Shown one piece after another: positions 1-29,391 of a DNA stretch of 64,000 nucleotides. Within the stretch, counting starts at the first letter, position 1; each line of letters begins with the position of its first letter. A model generated the notes under the pieces. The model saw nothing but the letters and a program-made list of their open reading frames with translations, had not been told where the DNA came from and did no database searches. The DNA comes from an uncultured Alphaproteobacteria bacterium (lineage in GTDB: Bacteria; Pseudomonadota; Alphaproteobacteria; Rhodospirillales; Rhodospirillaceae). A program made the position numbers and the translations under genes. The DNA lies in NCBI GenBank assembly GCA_902575965.1, contig CACGTM010000001.1, positions 62,001 to 126,000 of the forward strand, written 5' to 3'.

Positions 1-204
1 TATAGTTCCAGCTAATATATACAAAGGAATAGAGAGTAGAACTTCGCGATTCGATGCATCCCACATGTCATAGACGACATTCATCAGCTCCCCTCCGCCA
101 TAAAAATAATATGACCAAAAGGTTGCTACCCCTAATAAAACAATAATATTCATCCGAAGAATGAGAAGAGTAATTAGAATAATAGCTAGAATGATACCGC
201 TCAT
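1..204 (-). CDS. TRAP transporter large permease (DctM-like), N-terminal part; runs off window start
   Basis: Minus-strand translation MSGIILAIILITLLILRMNIIVLLGVATFWSYYFYGGGELMNVVYDMWDASNREVLLSIPLYILAG; directly downstream of DctQ-like ORF. Confidence 0.8.
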   Translation of the reverse strand, partial: MSGIILAIILITLLILRMNIIVLLGVATFWSYYFYGGGELMNVVYDMWDASNREVLLSIPLYILAGTI

Positions 205-209
205 AATTT

Positions 210-713
210 TTAGTTATTTCTTGGTGTTTCAGGAGGAATAGGTCTTAATTCTAAAAAAATTCCGTAAATTGTATGCCTAATAGCAACAAGGGTAAACCCG
301 AGAACTATTACACTTTGTATTGGCCAAATAGGCCAACGGAGCACTGCGGTTACATCTTGTAGTTCGAAGCTTTCTTTCGTAACACTGAAAGCTATGAATG
401 CAACAAAAAAGCAAAAGAGTGCAAACCCAAATTCACTAATTCTGTTTGCTGCGTTATCCCATTTTATTAAAATGTTATCTGCAAATCGGGGGCGAAAATG
501 TGATCCGTTGGCAGAGGCTAAAGCAATACCAATATATGCGACAACTATCATCCCCACTACTCCGACTTGAGGTGCACCAAACCATCCTGATCCAGTTATT
601 TCTCGACTAAGAACATCGCCCATAAGCGCGCCAGCCATTACAACAAAGGCAATAAAGCACATAAGTTGCTCAAAAATTTTGAGAAAGTGTAAAAATTTTT
701 TTGCTATTTGCAA
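210..713 (-). CDS. TRAP transporter small permease (DctQ-like)
   Basis: 167 aa, four hydrophobic segments, DctQ-like pattern, adjacent to DctM. Confidence 0.8.
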   Translation of the reverse strand: MQIAKKFLHFLKIFEQLMCFIAFVVMAGALMGDVLSREITGSGWFGAPQVGVVGMIVVAYIGIALASANGSHFRPRFADNILIKWDNAANRISEFGFALFCFFVAFIAFSVTKESFELQDVTAVLRWPIWPIQSVIVLGFTLVAIRHTIYGIFLELRPIPPETPRNN

Positions 714-876
714 AGATAATCTCCAAAATGAAATTTGTAGTTTGAGGTTTACTTTATATTCTTTGGGTGGTTTTGCAAACCGCTCCTATTAAAGATATTA
801 ACTTTAATATAATAATTGATGTTTATTGAAGTTAATTAAATAAGTATTGAGATTTTTACAAAGTTTAGAGGGTTAT

Positions 877-1569
877 ATGATAAAATTATATTACTGGCCA
901 ACACCAAATGGGCATAAAATACCCATAATGCTAGAGGAATGTAGTCTTGAGTACGAGGTGTTTCCAGTAAATATGTTAAAAGGTGAGCAATTTGAGGATG
1001 ATTTTCTCAAAATTAATCCAAATAATAAAATTCCTGCGATTGTTGATACGGATGGTCCAAATGGAGAGAATATTTCTATATTTGAATCAGGTGCTATTCT
1101 TCTTTACCTAGCTGAAAAAACTAAAAAGTTTATTCCCAAATCTCCCTCAAAGAGGCTTGATGTAATTCAGTGGTTATTCTTTCAAGTTGCAAATGTTGGT
1201 CCTATGTTCGGACAATGTGGACATTTTCTTCAATATGCGCCCAAAAAGGTTGAGTACGGAATAAATCGTTATCAAACAGAAACGAAAAGGTTATACAGGG
1301 TAATGGATAAGAAGCTGGGCGATACTCAATTCTTGGCAGGGGATTATTCTATTGCAGACATGGCAACCTATCCTTGGGTGAAAATAAATTATTTTCACGA
1401 AATTGATATTGATGATTATCCTAATGTGAAAAGGTGGAGAGAAGATGTGGGGTTAAGGCCAGCTGTTATAAAAGGATGCGGGCTATTGGAGGATATAATG
1501 AAATTAGGTGACCCAGATGATGAAGCTTTTAAAAATTTGTTTGATCGTCAAAAAGAAGATAGGAGATAA
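877..1569 (+). CDS. Glutathione S-transferase family protein (YfcG/Ure2p-like)
   Basis: MIKLYYWPTPNGHKIPIMLEE...; ATG at 877 with GAGGG upstream preferred over TTG at 847. Confidence 0.85.
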   Translation: MIKLYYWPTPNGHKIPIMLEECSLEYEVFPVNMLKGEQFEDDFLKINPNNKIPAIVDTDGPNGENISIFESGAILLYLAEKTKKFIPKSPSKRLDVIQWLFFQVANVGPMFGQCGHFLQYAPKKVEYGINRYQTETKRLYRVMDKKLGDTQFLAGDYSIADMATYPWVKINYFHEIDIDDYPNVKRWREDVGLRPAVIKGCGLLEDIMKLGDPDDEAFKNLFDRQKEDRR

Positions 1570-1574
1570 ATCTT

Positions 1575-2126
1575 TTGGTTCTGGAAAAAGAAAATTCTCA
1601 ATTGCTGGTTGTTGATATTCAAGAAAAATTAGTATCGGTAATGTCTGAAAGAAAAAAACTAATAAGAAATAGCCTAGTTTTAATTGAAAGTGCAAATGAA
1701 TTTCATATACCAATAACATTTTCAACCCAATACACAAAAGGATTAGGAGGTTTGCATCCAGATATTACAAAATTTAGTAATGGTTGTGATGTTTTTGAAA
1801 AGATATCTTTTTCATGTTCAAAAGATAATAAAATTAATGACTCTATAAGCCATAAGGTTAATCTTGGTCATTCACAGTTAATAATTTTTGGAATTGAATT
1901 GCATATTTGTGTTTTACAGTCTGCTCTTGGATTCAAACAAAAAGGATTTGAAGTTTATGTAGTAGTTGATGCAACATCGTCACGAGAGAAGGAGTCAATG
2001 GAAATTGCTATTACAAGACTTACTAAATACAATATAAGCATAGTGACAACAGAAATGGTAATTTTTGAGTGGCTTAAGTATTCAGGTACAGATACATTTA
2101 AAAAATTAAGTCAACTTATAAAGTAA
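1575..2126 (+). CDS. Isochorismatase-family cysteine hydrolase
   Basis: LLVVDIQEKL, IIFGIELHICVLQSALGF motif; TTG start. Confidence 0.8.
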   Translation: MVLEKENSQLLVVDIQEKLVSVMSERKKLIRNSLVLIESANEFHIPITFSTQYTKGLGGLHPDITKFSNGCDVFEKISFSCSKDNKINDSISHKVNLGHSQLIIFGIELHICVLQSALGFKQKGFEVYVVVDATSSREKESMEIAITRLTKYNISIVTTEMVIFEWLKYSGTDTFKKLSQLIK

Positions 2127-2132
2127 CTACTT

Positions 2133-2150
2133 GTACACTTAAAAGTGTAC
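2133..2150 (+). terminator. Rho-independent terminator
   Basis: Perfect inverted repeat GTACACTT-AA-AAGTGTAC followed by CTTTTATTTATTTTT. Confidence 0.75.
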
Positions 2151-2182
2151 CTTTTATTTATTTTTAGTTTTTGAGTTATTTA

Positions 2183-3028
2183 ATGAACCTAGTTAATAAT
2201 AGAAAATTGTCAGGCGTCGTAATTATGATTTTGGCAATGTTTATTATGACAGTAATGGATGCTGCAGTTAAGTGGCTTGTTTCCGATTATAGTATCCAGC
2301 AAATAAATTTTATTAGAAGCATTGTTGCTATGATTGTTTTGCTCCCTCAGGTATATTTTGACGGAGGGCTCTCAGCTTTTAAAACAAACAACAAAAAAGT
2401 TCATTTATGGAGAGTATTCTTGATGATTGTCATAAGTTACTCTTGGTTTTATGCACTTGGAAAAATGGAACTCGCAGAAATTGGCGCCTTAGTTATGGTT
2501 TCTCCTCTTTTTATAACAATACTCACTCCTATTCTTTTAAAAGAAGGAGTAAGCAAAAAAAAATGGTTTGCTGTTTTATTCGGTTTTTTTGGGATGTTAG
2601 TTATTATGAGGCCTGGATTTGAAGTTTTTCGTCCGATTTCAGTCCTGCCTGCTAGCGTTGCACTTGGATACGCTTTATTGCTTATATCTAATAGATCAAA
2701 TAGAGAAACTGAAACTCTTACGTCTTTAGTCTATTACCCATTAGTTGGTATTTTTATTTTTTCTTTATGCTTATTACCACTTGGTTGGATAACCCCATCT
2801 TTTTTTGATTTATCATTAATGTTCTTTATCGGGCTTTGTGGGGGTATTGGTCACTTTTGCCTTACTTTAGCATTTAGATATGCTTCCCCACCAACGCTTG
2901 CCCCACTTGAGTACACAGGTTTATTATGGGCAATTCTTTTAGGGTACTTAATTTTTAGAGAGATTCCAGATACATGGACTATCACTGGTATGGTATTAAT
3001 TACCATAGCTGGGTTTTTTTGTAATTAA
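2183..3028 (+). CDS. DMT/EamA-family transporter
   Basis: About 10 TM segments, EamA repeat features (YTGLLWAILLGYLIFREIPD); ATG at 2183 likely. Confidence 0.8.
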   Translation: MNLVNNRKLSGVVIMILAMFIMTVMDAAVKWLVSDYSIQQINFIRSIVAMIVLLPQVYFDGGLSAFKTNNKKVHLWRVFLMIVISYSWFYALGKMELAEIGALVMVSPLFITILTPILLKEGVSKKKWFAVLFGFFGMLVIMRPGFEVFRPISVLPASVALGYALLLISNRSNRETETLTSLVYYPLVGIFIFSLCLLPLGWITPSFFDLSLMFFIGLCGGIGHFCLTLAFRYASPPTLAPLEYTGLLWAILLGYLIFREIPDTWTITGMVLITIAGFFCN

Positions 3029-3217
3029 GAGAGAAGAGCAAAATCAATAGTAAGAGAAAAAATATTTTTTATTTAATTATTATTTAGTTTGGCATTAATA
3101 TAATTATTACAATCCAAAAGAAAATAGCTACAAGAAAATACAAAAGAAAAGAGTGCATGAGTTTTGACCAAGTTTATAAGTATGAATTTATTTAAATAAT
3201 ATTTCTTAGGTAAGAAA

Positions 3218-4957
3218 ATGGCACAAAATTTACAAACATCAAATAAAAAAAAACTTAAGGCAGGTGGGCAAGTGATTGCTGAATTGATTCAGCAAAAGGG
3301 GATCAAGTCTGTGGCCTGTTTATCTGGTACAGCCCATACTTATTTACTTTTGGCACTTGAAGAGTTGGGTATAGATATTATTTCAAGTCGTCATGAAACT
3401 GCTACTGTTGGAATAGCTGATGGATATGCAAGAGTATCAGGTAAACCCGGGATTGCTCTAATAAAAGCTGATCAAGGTATGCCAAATGCCATGACTGGAA
3501 TAATAACTGCTAATCAAGCATGCTCACCTGTAATTGTTTTAGCTTCTCTCTCTCCTGATGGTAAAAGAGAAGCAAATGATGAATGGTCAAATGATTGGTT
3601 AGATATTGTTAAGCCATTTGTCAAATGGGCCAGGGTTGTTCCAGATGTAGATAGGATTGAGGAATTTCTTAATACAGCTTTTATTCAATGCTGTAATGGT
3701 AGGCCAGGTGTTAGTGTACTTGGGGTTCCACAGCATTTTGAGTCACAAACTACGAGAAATTTTTCCTTTAATAATAATATGTATTCCAAAGTAGGGTGTC
3801 CAGATTTAGGGTCTATAGAAGCAGCAGCAGAACTATTACTCAATGCAAAGAGGCCTATGATTATTGCAGGAAGTGGCGCTGCATTGTCAGAATCTGGAGA
3901 GATACTTCAAAAGATTGTTAAAGACTTTTCTATACCTATATTGGCAAACTCTTTGGGAAGGGGGTTAGTGCCTGAGGATATGAGATTAAGTTTTTCTTGG
4001 CCTCTCGCACAAGTTGCTGCCAAGAAAGCTGATGTGGTTCTTGCAGTGGGAATACGCCTTACCCAAAGGCTCGGTTATGGATTGGCTCCAAGATTTAGTT
4101 CTCAAGCTAAGTTTATACAAGTTGATATTCATCCAGAAGAAATTGGAAGGAATAGAAACATTGATGTTCCTCTAAATGGAGACGCAAGACTAACTCTTGA
4201 AAGTCTATATAAAGTTATAATAAAAAAAGGGATGAAGCCTGCACCGAATATCGAATGGCTTCATAAATCACTTGAACCACGTCTCAAAAGAATAAAAGAA
4301 GTTGAAAGTGAGCCTAGAGATATAATTCACCCTTACCAATTAGCCCGAGAGCTGGTTAGGCAAATGCCCGACGATAGTATTTATGTAGGCGATGGTGCAG
4401 ATATCCAAAATTGGATGCACGCTATTCTTAAAATTAAAACTAAAAGAGGCTTTCTTGATCATTATCCTCTTGGTTCAATGGGCATTGGAACTCCTTTATC
4501 AATTGGCGCTGCTGTTGCTGCGCGAGATAATGGTTCAAAAAGTCCGGTTGTTCTGGTTACTGGGGACGGTGCATTTGGTTTTTATTCCTCTGAGCTGAAT
4601 GCTTTAGCTTTGTCTGGTATAAAAATAATTTGTATAATTTCTAACGATGGTGCTTGGGGAACTGAAAAGCATGGACAGATTAATGCCATAGGAAAATCAG
4701 TTAATTGTGAACTAGGGCAGTGGGATTATCATCTTTTAGCGCATATTTTTGGGGGTAATGGCGAGAAAGTTACATCAATACATGAACTAAAGCCAGCGCT
4801 TGAAAGAGCATTTAATTCAAAAAAATTCTCAGTGATAAATGTTATTACAGATCCAATGGCAGGTTTAATGCGAAAGAAAGATCCAAAGTTACAAATGATT
4901 GCATTTGAAGACTTAGTAACAAGTCTTAAAACTCACTATACTCCAGAAGTTGAATAG
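3218..4957 (+). CDS. Thiamine pyrophosphate-dependent enzyme (acetolactate synthase/oxalyl-CoA decarboxylase-like)
   Basis: N-terminal RHETATVGIADGYARVSGKPGIA; C-terminal TGDGAFGFYSSELNALALSGIKIICIISND TPP motif. Confidence 0.85.
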   Translation: MAQNLQTSNKKKLKAGGQVIAELIQQKGIKSVACLSGTAHTYLLLALEELGIDIISSRHETATVGIADGYARVSGKPGIALIKADQGMPNAMTGIITANQACSPVIVLASLSPDGKREANDEWSNDWLDIVKPFVKWARVVPDVDRIEEFLNTAFIQCCNGRPGVSVLGVPQHFESQTTRNFSFNNNMYSKVGCPDLGSIEAAAELLLNAKRPMIIAGSGAALSESGEILQKIVKDFSIPILANSLGRGLVPEDMRLSFSWPLAQVAAKKADVVLAVGIRLTQRLGYGLAPRFSSQAKFIQVDIHPEEIGRNRNIDVPLNGDARLTLESLYKVIIKKGMKPAPNIEWLHKSLEPRLKRIKEVESEPRDIIHPYQLARELVRQMPDDSIYVGDGADIQNWMHAILKIKTKRGFLDHYPLGSMGIGTPLSIGAAVAARDNGSKSPVVLVTGDGAFGFYSSELNALALSGIKIICIISNDGAWGTEKHGQINAIGKSVNCELGQWDYHLLAHIFGGNGEKVTSIHELKPALERAFNSKKFSVINVITDPMAGLMRKKDPKLQMIAFEDLVTSLKTHYTPEVE

Positions 4958-4960
4958 TTT

Positions 4961-6322
4961 TTAAATCCAGGATGAAGCAAGAATAAAAAATATACCAATT
5001 GGGCAAATATAACGAATTGAAAATCTCCAGCATGAAAAGAATATGCGATTCTTCCCAAGTTCGTATTCTAGAATTTCGTCTTTAACATACCATCCTGTAA
5101 AAATTGCAATCATCATACCACCAAGTGGTAGCAAGAGTTGCCCGGTAAAATAGTCGGTTAGATCTAACATTGAGTATGTTTGAAATTTAGTGATAAAGCT
5201 AAGCAAATAGACATCTGACAAGATATTTGTTGAAAGAGCAGAACTAATGCCGGTCAACCAGACTAAAAATCCTATCAATAAGGAGGCACTTTTTCTTGAC
5301 CATCCAGGAATTTCTTCAAGCCATGACACGGGGACTTCAAGGAGAGAAATTGCTGAAGTTAATGCTGCGAATGCTAGTAGTAAATAAAATGCGACACCAA
5401 TGAATTCGCCACCGGTCATCTGCCCGAATGCAATTGGGAGGGTCATAAAGACAAGACTTGGCCCCGCACTTGGATCCAAGCCATTTGAAAATACAATTGG
5501 AAATATAACTAATCCAGCAATTATAGCTACAAAGGTGTCTGCAAATGCAATTGTAATACATGCACTGGGAAGAGAAATATTTTTTGGTAAATATGCACCA
5601 TAAGTAAACATTATTCCTATTCCAACCCCAATAGAAAAGAATGCTTGACCTATAGCAGCTAATATTACTTCAGGTGTTATCTTACTAAAATTAGGCATGA
5701 ATAAAAAGCTTATACCCCCTAATCTGTCCGCTTGAGAGAGAGAAAATAGACATAGGAAAATTAGAATTATAAATAGTGAGGGCATCATAAACTTGACAGC
5801 TAGTTCAAGTCCTCCTTTTATTCCCCTCATAACAATTAATGTGCTAAGTAAAATGAAAAATGTATGCCAAGAGATTACTCTGGTAGGATTACCTGTAATG
5901 TTTTCAAAAAGCTCTGAACTTTTTGAAGAGTCTAGGTTTTCAAACATGCCCATTACTGAGAAAGGAATATAAGAAAAAACCCATCCGCCAATAACACTGT
6001 AGAAAGAGAGTATTAGAAAAGCTGATGCAACACCAAGCCATCCAACAACAGACCATTTTCTGGACGTATTAGAATTTTCTGCGACTTTAGCCATTGAAAC
6101 AGGTGGACTCATTTGTCCATTTTTGCCTATCATTGTTTCTGCTATAAGCACAGGAATTGCAATTGCAACTACAGCAATAAGATAGATTAATACAAATGCA
6201 CCTCCTCCATTTGTTCCAGCCATATAAGGAAAACGCCATATGTTACCTAACCCAACAGCAGCTCCTATAGCGGCAAGTAAGAATATACTTTTAGAAGACC
6301 AGTTCTCATGTTTAAAAGCCAT
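4961..6322 (-). CDS. Sodium-dependent (NSS/SNF family) transporter
   Basis: AAIGAAVGLGNIWRFPYMAGTNGGGAFVLIYL signature. Confidence 0.9.
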   Translation of the reverse strand: MAFKHENWSSKSIFLLAAIGAAVGLGNIWRFPYMAGTNGGGAFVLIYLIAVVAIAIPVLIAETMIGKNGQMSPPVSMAKVAENSNTSRKWSVVGWLGVASAFLILSFYSVIGGWVFSYIPFSVMGMFENLDSSKSSELFENITGNPTRVISWHTFFILLSTLIVMRGIKGGLELAVKFMMPSLFIILIFLCLFSLSQADRLGGISFLFMPNFSKITPEVILAAIGQAFFSIGVGIGIMFTYGAYLPKNISLPSACITIAFADTFVAIIAGLVIFPIVFSNGLDPSAGPSLVFMTLPIAFGQMTGGEFIGVAFYLLLAFAALTSAISLLEVPVSWLEEIPGWSRKSASLLIGFLVWLTGISSALSTNILSDVYLLSFITKFQTYSMLDLTDYFTGQLLLPLGGMMIAIFTGWYVKDEILEYELGKNRIFFSCWRFSIRYICPIGIFFILASSWI

Positions 6323-6364
6323 ATTGTATAGATACCCTAGTTATTTAAGTTGGAGGAAATTCCT

Positions 6365-7024
6365 ATGAGGTTTAGATTCTTTTCTGTCTGCTCTTTACTA
6401 ATAATATCTATATCCTGTTTTGCCAAAGAGCAAGAAAATCATGAAAGTAAAGTGCTACTTGACTTTATAAACAAAAATTTACCAGGTTTTTATCAGACTA
6501 TACCCAATAACAGATCTATAAAGAATGGAAATAATTTTACTTTAAGCACAATTATAGTGCCTTTAAAGAAAGATGACGTTGGATACAATTTATTTTATCT
6601 AGAAGAGTTTAAAGATAACAACCCAAAGATGGTTGTTCGACGGAGGATATATTCTTTTTGGATAGAAAATGACAAAGTAAAATTAAAACTATTTAACCCT
6701 CGTAAAGAGCTAAAATTTCCTCCTCTTGATTTAAATTATCAAAATGGAATACCATTTAGATTGGACTTCATAAAATCACTAAGCTCTGAAGATTTTTATG
6801 CAGACAGAGATGTTTGTATTCTTCATATAAATAAATTTATGAAAAAAGTAGTAGCTAGGATGGGAACTCATAAATGCAATAGAGAAGAAACTTGGATTGA
6901 TTACGAATTAATAATTGGAAAAGATGGCATGTGGACATGTTTTGCAAGAAGAAATATTAAAGATGATTCTCTTTTTTGGTTACAATCACCAGACGCACCT
7001 TGTTTGTGGCAGCTCAGAAATTAG
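6365..7024 (+). CDS. Exported protein, possible CpeT/CpcT-like fold
   Basis: Signal peptide MRFRFFSVCSLLIISISCFAKE, then LPGFYQTIPN, VVRRRIYSFWIEND; weak family-level resemblance. Confidence 0.4.
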   Translation: MRFRFFSVCSLLIISISCFAKEQENHESKVLLDFINKNLPGFYQTIPNNRSIKNGNNFTLSTIIVPLKKDDVGYNLFYLEEFKDNNPKMVVRRRIYSFWIENDKVKLKLFNPRKELKFPPLDLNYQNGIPFRLDFIKSLSSEDFYADRDVCILHINKFMKKVVARMGTHKCNREETWIDYELIIGKDGMWTCFARRNIKDDSLFWLQSPDAPCLWQLRN

Positions 7025-8226
7025 GAAATTTTTTTCTTAGATAAGAATAATGCAAAAAATATTGCAAAAAAACTTGCTATCTTGAGTGTTGTACTAGGGG
7101 TGGTAAAACTTGCAATGTATCCCCAAAATGGACTGGATAATGCTGTCGCGCCCATAAAAACTGTTGTTATCAGTGCAAGACCTCTTCCTCGAATTTCATC
7201 AGGAAACTTTTGTTGAGCACTTACTTGCAATGAAGTCATTACAAAGAAAGAAGTAGCGCCCATTAGAATCATGAGGCACCCTAAAGAAAAAATATTTTGC
7301 GTTAATGATAAAAGTAATAAAATTATACCATGAAGGCATATCCCTATATTAATACCATTAGTTTTTGATATGAGGTTTGACAAAATACCGTAGAGTGAAG
7401 CCCCAATTACAGCTCCAGTTCCAAATAACCCGTATAAAAATCCAAAGTCTTTTGGATCTTCTAACATCAGAGGTATTATTCCAAGAATAGTGGACCAAGT
7501 GCAGAAATAAAGACCTCCCCTTAGAAGAATAATTCTATATGTTTTTTCTTTTGAAGAGTAGGTAATAATCCCTTCAATTTTGTTTAAAATTTGAGGGTAA
7601 GTTAATTTGATAATACTAAATTTGCTGGGTAGGTTTAGTAAAATTACTATATAAAAAAAATATACGAAAGAATTTGCAATCAAAAGAAATGCAGCTCCAA
7701 TTATGGGTAGGAGAAATCCTGCCATTGCTGGGCCAATAACCCTTCCTCCATTTACCGACATACTATTTAGTGCAATTGAGAATGGCATGAGACTCTTGCT
7801 AGTAAGAGATACTAAGTATGCAGACTGACAAGGAAGTTTCATGGCATTACCAATGGATAACATAGCTGTTGCAGTAAGCAAGGCAATAGGGCTTCTTGTA
7901 TCGGTTAAAACTAAAAGAGAAATAATGAGAGGGGGAATCATCATCCATAATTGTGAGAAAATAAGAAATTTACGTCTGTCAAAAATATCTGCGAGAATAC
8001 CGAAAGGTAATGAAAGAAGCATGGCCGGAAGAAAAAGCGCTGTTTGGACAAATGAAAGCATTAACGCATCGCTGTTTGTCCAGCTTATCATTAGAGAAGT
8101 AGCAATTATATTCTGCATCCAAAATGCAATTGTTGATAGTGACATACCAGCCCAAAAAATTCTAAAGTCAAAAATTTTTAGAGGGCTCCAAATTGATAGC
8201 TGAGTTTTATCGCAAATATTTGACAT
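7021..8226 (-). CDS. MFS transporter (TMEM/enterobactin exporter-like)
   Basis: 12-TM pattern; LPFGILADIFDRRKFLI; NGGRVIGPAMAGFL. Confidence 0.8.
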   Translation of the reverse strand: MSNICDKTQLSIWSPLKIFDFRIFWAGMSLSTIAFWMQNIIATSLMISWTNSDALMLSFVQTALFLPAMLLSLPFGILADIFDRRKFLIFSQLWMMIPPLIISLLVLTDTRSPIALLTATAMLSIGNAMKLPCQSAYLVSLTSKSLMPFSIALNSMSVNGGRVIGPAMAGFLLPIIGAAFLLIANSFVYFFYIVILLNLPSKFSIIKLTYPQILNKIEGIITYSSKEKTYRIILLRGGLYFCTWSTILGIIPLMLEDPKDFGFLYGLFGTGAVIGASLYGILSNLISKTNGINIGICLHGIILLLLSLTQNIFSLGCLMILMGATSFFVMTSLQVSAQQKFPDEIRGRGLALITTVFMGATALSSPFWGYIASFTTPSTTLKIASFFAIFFALFLSKKKIS

Positions 8227-8288
8227 AAGTCTTTTTAAATGATTATTCTTTTACTGGATAGTAAATAATTTTTTTGAAATTTTAATTC

Positions 8289-10583
8289 ATGTCATCATTA
8301 AAAAAGTCTTATGGCCCCCTTAAGGGTTTGCGTGTTCTAGATTGCGGAACTGCAATCGTAGGTCCGTGGGCAGCTACTCTTCTTGCATTCCTCGGTGCAA
8401 AGGTTATTAAGCTTGAGAGACCATCAGGTGAAATAACAAGATTGGCAAGGCCTCACCAGAATAATTGGTCAACAGCTTATACTGTTGCAAACTTATGTAA
8501 AATGTCTGCAGAAGTAGATTATAAGGATCCTAAAAGTAAAAAACATGTTGAAATGTTATTATCCGAAGCAGATGTGATTATAGAAAATTTTAGGCCAGGT
8601 GTTGCAGATAGAGTAGGAATTGGATTTCAGAAAGCTAAATCTCTAAATAAAAATATTGTATATGCATCTAGCTCTGGATGGGGTTATGAAGGTCCTATGC
8701 GAGACATGTCTGCTGTTGACTCACATTTACAGGCTTTTAGTGGTTTCGCATCATTAAATGGAGAAAAGGGAAAAAAACCTGAGATCTTAAGATATACGCA
8801 CATTGACCCGAGTGGAGGAGCCTTTTTAGCTGCGGGAGTATTATTAGGTGTTTTATTCCAAAAAAGATTTGGTTTAGCTAATCATATAGTAACAAGTCAT
8901 TTAGCAATGTCCTTGACAATGCAAGCTTCTAAGTTAGCAGAGTCATTATCTACCAATAAGCCAATTGATAGATTTGGAAGTGAATGTTCGGCTAGTGTTC
9001 CAAATTCATGTTTTCTGACGTTAGATAAAAAATATATCTCAATATCTGTACAAAATAATCGGCAGTGGGAATCTTTTTGTAAAGCTCTTGACGAAGTCTC
9101 TTTGCTTAGAGATGAGCGTTTTTCAACAAATTTGTTAAGAGTTACTAACAGGGATGATTTAAAAAAAATTATTTCAGATAGAATCTCTTCTTTACCTCTT
9201 AGGTGGTGGAATATTCGTTTTTTAAAATTTAATGTACCTGCCAGTCCAATTATGGATGCCGATAGTTTATTTTCAAATATTCATGTTAGGGATAATGAAT
9301 TTATAGTTGATATAAATACACCACATGCGGGTGTAATTAAAACAGGTGGCTTGCCATGGTCTTTTAAAAATAATCCCGCCTCTATGGATCAAATTTCCTC
9401 CTTTCCAGGTGCAGATACCGCCAAGGTTTTGAAAAGTGGTTTTGGTAAAAAACAAAAAAATATTGATAGAACCTATAAAAAGCCATTAGATTCACTTCCT
9501 CTTACAGGTTTTAGAGTTGTTGACCTTTCTAGTGGATATGCAGGTCCTTTCATAAGCCTATTACTAGCAGATTCTGGTGCACTTGTTAAAAAAATTGAAA
9601 TTGGCGATGGCGATTGGTCAAGGGAACTTGCTCCAAAATCAGATAAAGCTAGCGCTGTTTTTGAGGCAATGAACAGAAATAAAGAAATTATAAAATATAC
9701 AACTATTAATGATGAATCAAAAAGTCAAATATCTGCAATGATAAAGGAGTCAGATGTTGTTATATACGACTCGAATGAAATATCTGGGTTTGAATTAAAG
9801 GAAATCATAAAGGAAGGAATGCATCCAAAACTTATTTCTTTAGGTTTATCTTATTATGGTGAGTATGGATATCTTAGTGGCAAGGAAGGAAGTGAGCTGA
9901 CGGTACAAGCTATGTCTGGATATTTGAGGTCTTTAGGTTCTATTGAGAATGAGCCCATACGGGTTGGTGCTGATATTTCTGAGAGTGCAGCGGTTTCAAT
10001 GGGGTTAGTTTCAATTCTCGCAGCTTTATACAATAGAGAGGATAGTGGTATAGGAGATAGTATACACGTTAGTAGACTAGGTGCACTTTTGTCTTTGCGT
10101 TCATTACAGTGGGCTGCTGTTAGTGAGCCAGATAGTTGGCTTGGCCCGTCTTATTGCTTAGCCGAGACAGATGAGCCTAGATATGGTTATAAAACTAAGG
10201 ATAAAAATATATTTGTTTCTATGATGAACTTGCGTGAAGAGAATTCATTTAAGATGATACTTGAAGATTTAGGAATGATAGAAGATTTGAAAAGTAACGA
10301 GAAATTTATTAAAGAAGGGAAAAACACAATTGGAATGGGCTACCTTACCCGGGAATACCATCATGTGTGGGAAAAATATTTTATAAATTTCACTTCAAAA
10401 GAGTTGTTAGATATATTTAATAAACATGGAGCAACGGCTGTTGAATTCCTTGAGTTAAATGAGTTATTCTCAAATAGTCAAATTATATCTCTAGGTATTA
10501 TACATGATCATAGGGGTCGCAAATTTCTCAGAGCACCCTGGGTGGGGTTATGGCCTCAGCCTGATATATTTACTGGATTTTAA
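8289..10583 (+). CDS. Double-domain CaiB/BaiF (class III) CoA-transferase
   Basis: N-half LKGLRVLDCGTAIVGPWAATLLAFLGAKVIKLE; C-half LTGFRVVDLSSGYAGPFISLLLADSGALVKKIE; two family III domains in 764 aa. Confidence 0.85.
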   Translation: MSSLKKSYGPLKGLRVLDCGTAIVGPWAATLLAFLGAKVIKLERPSGEITRLARPHQNNWSTAYTVANLCKMSAEVDYKDPKSKKHVEMLLSEADVIIENFRPGVADRVGIGFQKAKSLNKNIVYASSSGWGYEGPMRDMSAVDSHLQAFSGFASLNGEKGKKPEILRYTHIDPSGGAFLAAGVLLGVLFQKRFGLANHIVTSHLAMSLTMQASKLAESLSTNKPIDRFGSECSASVPNSCFLTLDKKYISISVQNNRQWESFCKALDEVSLLRDERFSTNLLRVTNRDDLKKIISDRISSLPLRWWNIRFLKFNVPASPIMDADSLFSNIHVRDNEFIVDINTPHAGVIKTGGLPWSFKNNPASMDQISSFPGADTAKVLKSGFGKKQKNIDRTYKKPLDSLPLTGFRVVDLSSGYAGPFISLLLADSGALVKKIEIGDGDWSRELAPKSDKASAVFEAMNRNKEIIKYTTINDESKSQISAMIKESDVVIYDSNEISGFELKEIIKEGMHPKLISLGLSYYGEYGYLSGKEGSELTVQAMSGYLRSLGSIENEPIRVGADISESAAVSMGLVSILAALYNREDSGIGDSIHVSRLGALLSLRSLQWAAVSEPDSWLGPSYCLAETDEPRYGYKTKDKNIFVSMMNLREENSFKMILEDLGMIEDLKSNEKFIKEGKNTIGMGYLTREYHHVWEKYFINFTSKELLDIFNKHGATAVEFLELNELFSNSQIISLGIIHDHRGRKFLRAPWVGLWPQPDIFTGF

Positions 10584-16257: not shown

Positions 16258-19288
<3,031 letters not shown>

Positions 19289-19296
19289 AGGGTTGC

Positions 19297-19327
19297 TCTG
19301 AAACCCTTATAAACAGTGGGTTTCAGA
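19297..19327 (+). terminator. Hairpin downstream of guaA (probable terminator)
   Basis: Perfect 10-bp inverted repeat TCTGAAACCC-N11-GGGTTTCAGA 9 nt after the guaA stop. Confidence 0.6.
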
Positions 19328-19462
19328 ATTTCAAATTTCTAAATCTGATTTTTTAAGTTATTGATTTTATTACCTTTTAAAAATCTTACTACAAAGAAAC
19401 TCACAAACCAGAGTAGCCATTGTAAACGATTATGACTTGTTTCATTATTAAACAAACTAATG

Positions 19463-19678
19463 TTAATGATTCATCTTTTCTCGTGATGAAAATGGAGAAA
19501 CATACTTTATTTGAGCTGAACTCAAGTCTTTAAGTACATCACGATCTAATTGCAGAACAAGATGATATTCATAATTAGAGACAATACTAAAAGCAGGAAA
19601 GTCAGCTTCGTATCCAGGATTTCTATCACATACTAATCTATAATATGGAGTTTTATTATTATCGATTAGATGTCCCAT
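19463..19678 (-). CDS. Small hypothetical protein
   Basis: 71 aa ORF in a long intergenic region; no recognisable motif. Confidence 0.3.
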   Translation of the reverse strand: MGHLIDNNKTPYYRLVCDRNPGYEADFPAFSIVSNYEYHLVLQLDRDVLKDLSSAQIKYVSPFSSREKMNH

Positions 19679-19729
19679 AATGTTTCTTCTGCCAAATTAC
19701 AAACTTTGTAGTAATTATCTTGTAGCGAG

Positions 19730-19915
19730 CTCAAATTTTACTCGCTCTGTAGCCCCCATAAACAAAGGGCTTGTGACAGCACTGTTTATGAGTGGGTAAG
19801 TTCATGTAGGCGTGGTAAGCGTAATTGACGCTGATACACATGTGATGGGGCTTACCCTGTATGAGCACGTTAGCTCAGAGAGGTAAGTTTTTGCAGCAGC
19901 GATGTGCTGAAGAGG
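19730..19915 (+). other. Hairpin-rich leader/structured region upstream of GC-rich gene
   Basis: Nested inverted repeats: AGCGAG/CTCGCT, CATAAACA/TGTTTATG (19757-19790), GGGTAAG/CTTACCC (19794-19857) enclosing CATGT/ACATG and GCGT/ACGC, TGAGC/GCTCA (19862-19877), CAGCA/TGCTG (19894-19909). Confidence 0.5.
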
Positions 19916-19921
19916 TGGTTT

Positions 19922-20776
19922 ATGAATTTTATGAAAAAGAATAGTTTGTGTGTTGCGGCTGCCTTGTTTGGTTTGGCTCATGCATCCGTTGTTGTTGCAG
20001 AAGGTACTAAGCAGCTAGCAGCGGAGCAATCAGCGCGTCCGCTTTCGGCTTTCTTTGGGTTAGACAACAATCTGCCCTTTGGCGCTAATGTCCTGTGTTT
20101 AGGCGCGTGGGGTGAGGACGGTATGCCGGTGGTTTTGAGCCACACCGTTAACCCAGATTCATTGCAAGCTGAAGACTTCCGTGTGGTAAGGCTGTCCGGA
20201 GCCACTAACACTCCTATGTGTGTCACCCTGCGTCCAGCAAGCGACGTGGATGAAAATCGGACGGTTTTGCTGATTGGTGAATTTGGTAATGCCGATGATG
20301 ATCCGCCAGTTAAGGTGTTGATCGTAGACGATGTGCTTTCAGACGCCACCGACAGTCCCCAGCTGAACTTTCGTGGTACCCAAGTCTCGGTTATTCCTCT
20401 CGACGCCGGCCCAGAGATTATTTTGGCTGCGGCGGTGCCAAAGGATATCTGGTCGCTGTCGGGTCGGGGAACGTCTTGCCCCACCGCCACCAAACAAGTG
20501 GTGCGGGTGACCTGGACAGGTGGCGTGAGACTGCCCAACAGAGATGAGTTGGGCGAGGCACAGAGGAAGTTATATAAGGTAAGCCTCACCGCTGCGGATG
20601 GCTCTCGGTCCGAGGTGAGTCCGGCAGCATTGGCAGAACTAGGCGACGCCGACAACAACCACTTTCTTTGTCTGGACACGACCACGCCCGCTACCGCCGT
20701 GGCTTTTCCTGCGGGGCATTTGGTTGATCCGAACGGTGATCTAAATGCAGATTCCAAGGTTATGGTTCGCAGATAG
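19922..20776 (+). CDS. Exported protein of unknown function in GC-rich, probably horizontally acquired cassette
   Basis: ATG with GAGGTGG upstream; signal peptide MKKNSLCVAAALFGLAHASVVVAEG; codon usage (GCC, CTG, CGC, GGC) clearly unlike neighbours. Confidence 0.7.
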   Translation: MNFMKKNSLCVAAALFGLAHASVVVAEGTKQLAAEQSARPLSAFFGLDNNLPFGANVLCLGAWGEDGMPVVLSHTVNPDSLQAEDFRVVRLSGATNTPMCVTLRPASDVDENRTVLLIGEFGNADDDPPVKVLIVDDVLSDATDSPQLNFRGTQVSVIPLDAGPEIILAAAVPKDIWSLSGRGTSCPTATKQVVRVTWTGGVRLPNRDELGEAQRKLYKVSLTAADGSRSEVSPAALAELGDADNNHFLCLDTTTPATAVAFPAGHLVDPNGDLNADSKVMVRR

Positions 20777-28923: not shown

Positions 28924-29391
28924 ATGATAGATCAAGATAAGCATTCAAGAAGAATTTTTTTTTCCTCCGCTGTTCTCGGGGCATTTGGATTGTGCCTTTC
29001 TCCCTGTAATACGTCTTTTACAATGCAATCCAAAAAGAAAAATTTTCTATATGAACCAAAATTAGGTTTTGCAAAATTAGATAGTAATGAAAACCCTTAT
29101 GGCCCTAGCCCAAAAGCGCTGGAAGCAATTAACAAAGCCTCAAAAAGAGGTGCTTATTACGTTAAAGCTTCAGGAAAATTTCTTAGAGAAATGATAGCGG
29201 AAAAACATAATCTCTCACCTGATCATGTCATGCTTAGTTCTGGATCGACAGCAGCCTTGGCTAATATAGCTTTTGCAGCAATTGTATCGGCAAAAATTGC
29301 AGTAGAAAAGTTAATAGATATTATTAACCAAACTGATTTATCTCAAACTGGGTCTTTTATTAACATTGATGGAGAAGAGCTTCCTTGGTAG
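28924..29391 (+). pseudogene. Chimeric remnant: N-terminus of Tat-type PLP aminotransferase (HisC-like) fused to C-terminal tail of an SDR
   Basis: SRRIFFSSAVLGAFG signal; AKLDSNENPYGPSPKALEAI...SSGSTAALANIAFAA then IDIINQTDLSQTGSFINIDGEELPW, an SDR C-terminus. Confidence 0.65.

Follow-up and report, generated by a model that had tools for sequence, protein, structure and literature searches.

The hairpin-rich stretch at 19730-19915 of the window (the whole 64-kb stretch of DNA that was analysed) is probably the junction at which two mobile cassettes, inserted in succession at the guaA 3' end, meet. In the proposed scheme, the right end of the first cassette (about 19697-19796) would close with a decayed copy of the attachment core GAGTGGGA, and the second cassette would comprise a leader (19797-19921) and, as cargo, a GC-rich secreted-protein gene. 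Circular cassettes would be joined to the core by site-specific recombination, catalysed by a guaA-specific tyrosine recombinase that acts from elsewhere or has since been lost. Each insertion would rebuild the end of guaA and leave one more core between neighbouring cassettes. The features on which this reading is based are collected in Table 1.

Table 1. Features of the guaA region in the window. Where two positions are separated by a slash, they are the first bases of the two arms of an inverted repeat.
Feature	Position	Strand	Basis or remark
guaA (GMP synthase)	17738-19288	+	ORF
Last codons of guaA, ATTGAGTGGGAATAA	19274-19288		Contain the attachment core GAGTGGGA at 19277-19284
End of guaA and left end of inserted element, with palindrome GAAACCCTTATAAACAGTGGGTTTC (19300-19324)	19259-19456	+	DNA identity
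71-aa ORF	19463-19678	-	Translation; only candidate cargo of the first cassette (about 0.5 kb)
TTACAAACT arm-type repeat	19697-19705	+	Sequence; similar to the repeat before the palindrome in the right-end alignment
AGCGAG/CTCGCT	19724-19746 (19724/19741)		Inverted repeat within the predicted right end
Predicted right attachment end, palindromic block TGTAGCCCCCATAAACAAAGGGCTTG and core GAGTGGG (19790-19796)	19748-19796	+	Weight matrix, nhmmer
CATAAACA/TGTTTATG	19757/19783		Inverted repeat pair
Compound hairpin GGGTAAG..CTTACCC, with inner stem GTGGTAAGCGT/ACGCTGATACAC	19794-19857	+	Folding compared with shuffles
GGGTAAG/CTTACCC	19794/19851		Outer stem
CATGT/ACATG	19803/19838		Inner pair
GCGT/ACGC	19819/19828		Inner pair
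TGAGC/GCTCA	19862/19873		Inverted repeat pair
Putative 5' UTR travelling with the gene	19881-19921	+	Alignment to K189A homologue
CAGCA/TGCTG	19894/19905		Inverted repeat pair
Secreted-protein gene, mobile cargo	19922-20776	+	DNA identity across genomes

Left end of the first cassette

The guaA gene ends 0.5 kb upstream of the predicted right attachment end. The segment that covers the end of guaA and the left end of the inserted element matches its counterpart at guaA in the SAR86 genome G482 with 91% identity over 198 bp; in G482 the element at guaA carries genes for a DNA methylase and a ResIII helicase. The first 170 bp after guaA in the window belong to this matching stretch, and the left end is also 87–90% identical over 124 bp to the elements of G613 and G522. 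Despite the 91% identity of the left-end DNA, the GuaA proteins of the window and G482 are just 52% identical. The product of the 71-aa ORF that follows has no Pfam or NCBIfam match. A match of locus L002 to window positions 19365-19412 was dismissed as a chance similarity of AT-rich DNA.

In 63 oriented guaA-downstream regions, amounting to 978 kb, ATTGAGTGGGARTRR with at most one mismatch was found 20 times on the same strand, with no occurrence on the opposite strand and none for the reversed control.

Right end of the first cassette

The 5' half of the stretch includes, in this order, an TTACAAACT arm, a palindromic CCC..ATAAACA..GGG block, 20 bp, and GAGTGGG. The order and spacing of arm, block and core match those at the right ends of cassettes inserted at the guaA 3' end, and at cassette right ends in other genomes the palindrome GAAACCCTTATAAACAGTGGGTTTC precedes the core by about 20 bp. 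A weight matrix trained only on ends from other genomes revealed two outstanding sites in the window, at 19299 (the left end) and at 19748 (in the leader). For the palindromic block and the core at the proper spacing, 19748 ranked first among 127,888 positions, and none of 500 shuffles of the region equalled it. An nhmmer profile of 31 right ends, trained on SAR86 and K189A, matched 19734-19796 with 9.7 bits (E 0.066 in 64 kb), the next match outside the guaA segment reaching 3.5 bits. The family and order of the window were kept out of the training of this profile, and in that family and order it lands on independently found cores (for instance 24.5 bits in L088 and 12.6 bits in L099). As the foreign-trained matrix and profile agree on the site, we take the 5' half to be the first cassette's right end, which would extend over about 19697-19796. 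No full-length relative of the 5' half was found. The AGCGAG/CTCGCT pair lies within a stretch of approximately 25 bp that, judged by alignment spacing, is extra to the consensus right end.

The core of this right end, GAGTGGG-T, retains 7 of the 8 bases of GAGTGGGA, differs in the final base and lacks the usual ARTRR tail. Second cores are perfect in SAR86 and others. Because the final base of its core has changed, the right end in the window is probably no longer active.

Inverted repeats and the question of a structured RNA

A sequence-only reading had described the stretch as a multi-hairpin leader that could be a cis-regulatory RNA, a small RNA or the footprint of an integration. All of the short inverted repeats that it listed were found at their places in the sequence (Table 1), as were three copies of GGTAAG at 19795, 19814 and 19882. 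A 200-nt stretch contained 21 perfect inverted repeats with 5-nt arms, as compared with 8.9 in dinucleotide shuffles (1 of 300 shuffles), and 9 with 6-nt arms, as compared with 2.3 (4 of 300). The inverted repeats are real and exceed chance expectation. The excess of folding energy over shuffled sequence, which the same reading had named as a check, was weak on the forward strand (z about -1.8) and clear on the reverse strand, where z was -3.5 to -3.7. With the opposite strand folding better than the strand of the gene, the pattern gives no indication that the structure belongs to a transcript of the gene downstream. The sub-hairpin at 19790-19857, the limits of which were picked after the hairpin had been seen, gave z values of -3.9 on the forward and -3.7 on the reverse strand and was equalled in none of 300 shuffles.

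A cis-regulatory or small RNA that controls the secreted-protein gene, with hairpins folding in the transcript, draws support from the excess of inverted repeats, from the sub-hairpin that outfolds all 300 shuffles, and from a portion of the final ~40 bp of the leader that is common to the K189A homologue. However, the forward strand exceeds shuffles only slightly and the opposite strand does better relative to them; Rfam gave no match above the gathering score in 64 kb, and no sigma-70-like promoter was seen. Compensatory changes, another expectation for an RNA, did not emerge in the palindromic block taken alone, where one pair had changed on both sides and 316 of 500 shuffles scored equally high. 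The SAR86 copies of the gene have no such leader, and their start overlaps the preceding gene. An RNA of this kind is thus considered unlikely, and on present evidence the stretch is not a new RNA family. Of the three options raised at the outset, the integration footprint is borne out for the 5' half, whereas the searches for Rfam families, covariation and a promoter gave nothing in favour of a cis-regulatory or small RNA.

The 5' half is missing upstream of the same secreted-protein gene in other genomes, and a DNA search of 98 relatives with only the leader matched its own genome alone. A scan revealed no tRNA or tmRNA, and a sigma-70 promoter or a terminator was rejected as an explanation of the stretch. 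The 3' half, with few homologues, could still hold a regulatory hairpin.

The secreted-protein gene and its leader

The secreted-protein gene has a G+C content of 54%, as compared with 35% in the window, and homologues suggest that it starts at 19931. Its product has no match in Pfam, NCBIfam or PDB, and the AlphaFold model (pLDDT 45) was too poor for use. Copies of the gene were found in a MAG labelled Alphaproteobacteria from the window's own family (L007, 95.6% DNA identity), in SAR86 (L008 and L010, about 91%) and in a K189A genome (L009, 83%), with partial copies in L011 and L013 (95–97%). In L007, L008 and L010 the identity extends from 19928/19931 to 20777/20782, a few bases beyond the stop codon. 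At the DNA level the gene of the window is 91–96% identical to the copies in SAR86 and in the window's own family, whereas guaA is only 64–68% identical. No match was found in phage and plasmid collections, nor any IMG/VR pattern; hence no viral vector is visible.

The surroundings of these copies also involve guaA. The L007 copy sits about 1.5 kb beyond guaA, and its stop codon is followed by a guaA-end-like sequence. In SAR86, the gene comes after a core-started cassette in L008, L010 and L142, and in L008 the guaA 3' end, ATTGAGTGGGARTAR, occurs twice more ahead of it. A right end after the gene was not found in the window.

These comparisons bear on the possibility that the gene is an ordinary horizontally acquired one, preceded by a chance hairpin-rich intergenic region and close to guaA by coincidence. 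Bacterial intergenic DNA often contains short inverted repeats, and the core in the window is imperfect. Against this stand a left end that is common to SAR86 elements at guaA, a right end that ranked first and was equalled by no shuffle, and the position of the same gene in other genomes, where it is found at guaA or after a guaA-type core. Coincidence is strongly disfavoured and, in our estimate, very improbable; a junction of two cassettes is preferred.

The secreted-protein gene carries the segment 19797-19921 as its leader. As DNA identity is confined to the gene, from the start codon to just past the stop, the leader is not common to the copies, except for 27 bp (19881-19907) that align without gaps upstream of the K189A homologue in L009 (1 of 200 shuffles). 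The hairpin at 19794-19857 overlaps the right core, and no relatives of it were found when looked for. It may belong to the second cassette's leader, or be another worn site or an element that acts as RNA; the cassette junction leaves it without explanation. A second attachment site at 19812-19845, suggested by eye from a likeness to L007 3859-3890 downstream of the L007 copy of the gene, was considered and is not claimed, as 12 of 200 shuffles did equally well.

Two side observations concern other copies. In SAR86 L143 (G578, reverse strand, about 1504-1615) the gene breaks off after some 35 bp and passes directly into a cassette right end with a core. Contigs L011 and L013 both break, at their own position 1, inside the mobile gene, as expected for a gene that occurs in several contexts in a metagenome.

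Cassette arrays downstream of guaA in other genomes

SAR86, K189A and relatives of the window contain guaA-anchored arrays of small cassettes bounded by ATTGAGTGGGARTRR. The SAR86 arrays, in genomes chosen by the palindrome, have 3–6 cores about 0.3–5 kb apart, mostly with a few genes at most between them. Examples with ATTGAGTGGGARTRR separators and 5–6 cores each are L175 (G547, 6716-10497), L180 (G578, reverse strand, 317-9562) and L167 (G528, reverse strand, 93-8208).

A 1001-bp cassette with an alpha/beta-hydrolase gene is 99.0% identical, from core to core, in G602 (L169, 9746-10747) and G628 (L178, 8187-9188; both reverse strands). It stands second in the array of one genome and first in that of the other, its neighbours differ, and guaA of the two genomes is 67.8% identical. 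Several longer elements have left and right ends of about 165 bp in common and carry different cargo. A 293-bp near-empty element between two cores in G522 (L172, 8979-9272) is hardly more than two ends and is possibly a non-autonomous shell. Sequence comparison shows repeated cores, common cassette ends and the exact movement of a cassette between genomes.

The guaA-linked tyrosine recombinase

In K189A and in SAR86 G578 the gene after guaA encodes a tyrosine recombinase, and in some genomes such a gene heads the array; an integrase adjoins guaA in G481, G578, G408 and others. The guaA-linked recombinase was found in 3 of 151 SAR86 relatives, with all three matches within about 340 bp after guaA. 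In the order of the window, the same holds for 10 of the 11 strongest loci (E<1e-20, among matches listed), the exception (L189) having no guaA end in its flank. Recombinases that sequence comparison assigns to one family thus lie beside guaA in relatives, and we infer that it is this enzyme that moves the cassettes. No relative of it was found in the host genome (G000, 58% complete). Given its scarcity in SAR86 and the lack of a match in the host, most arrays would be served in trans or be relics. In the K189A array of G481, a second, broken guaA-type integrase gene lies just past the next core (L184; C5 80279-81226).

Small arrayed cassettes, palindromic recombination ends and a recombinase gene at the head of some arrays would also fit a classical integron, with the stretch as an attC site or part of a cassette array. 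However, the core is GAGTGGGA and not GTTRRRY, and the recombinase scored 19.5 bits against the XerA/integron-integrase model, for which the cut-off is 220, and is encoded beside guaA in the same orientation. A classical integron is therefore extremely improbable.

Relation to known systems

The guaA cassettes share with integrons a fixed entry site and small, palindrome-ended cassettes that are shuffled and common to different species. They differ from integrons in the core, the direct-repeat arm sites, the recombinase and the location of the entry site in a housekeeping gene. Integrase-less segments between att copies that are moved in trans are also found in CIMEs and in the tandem accretion of integrative elements; as compared with the usual examples, the units described here are smaller and more numerous per locus.

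GIsul2 islands insert at the 3' end of guaA, use the core GAGTGGGA and can contain a series of att copies; an integrase-less unit flanked by two att sites (CR2-sul2) can likewise be moved by their integrase (PMC9376610). Insertion site and core are the same in the window. Unlike GIsul2, the units here are often 0.3–2 kb with one or two genes, form arrays of 3–6 cores, are mostly without a linked integrase and have a palindromic right end in common; the window itself has no integrase gene next to guaA in a host genome that is 58% complete. Close kinship with the GIsul2 integrase is not claimed, as the guaA integrase of K189A had no match in the plasmid collection at 1e-5.

On the basis of these comparisons, the arrays appear to be a variant of known site-specific insertion with an integron-like organisation. 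A broader claim, to which we give about an even chance, is that marine SAR86, K189A and the window's family (apparently Alphaproteobacteria) have a second, independently evolved integron-like system at guaA with cassettes crossing between classes. In such a system the guaA 3' end would be the entry site, the small cassettes would bear palindromic right ends and the GAGTGGGA core, and the guaA-linked tyrosine recombinase would shuffle them. Arrays of guaA cassettes in such a form are apparently undescribed, no description having been found in the literature searched, coverage of which was incomplete.

Streamlined marine bacteria, SAR86 among them, are generally regarded as poor in mobile elements. 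An array at guaA would explain the transfer of single genes between streamlined lineages at over 90% identity. It would also provide a defined spot in metagenomes at which recently traded genes can be found, and a testable recombination system.

Elsewhere in the window, a short ORF at 28924-29391 has, as read from its translation, a start similar to that of a histidinol-phosphate-type aminotransferase and an early end, and is possibly a truncated gene.
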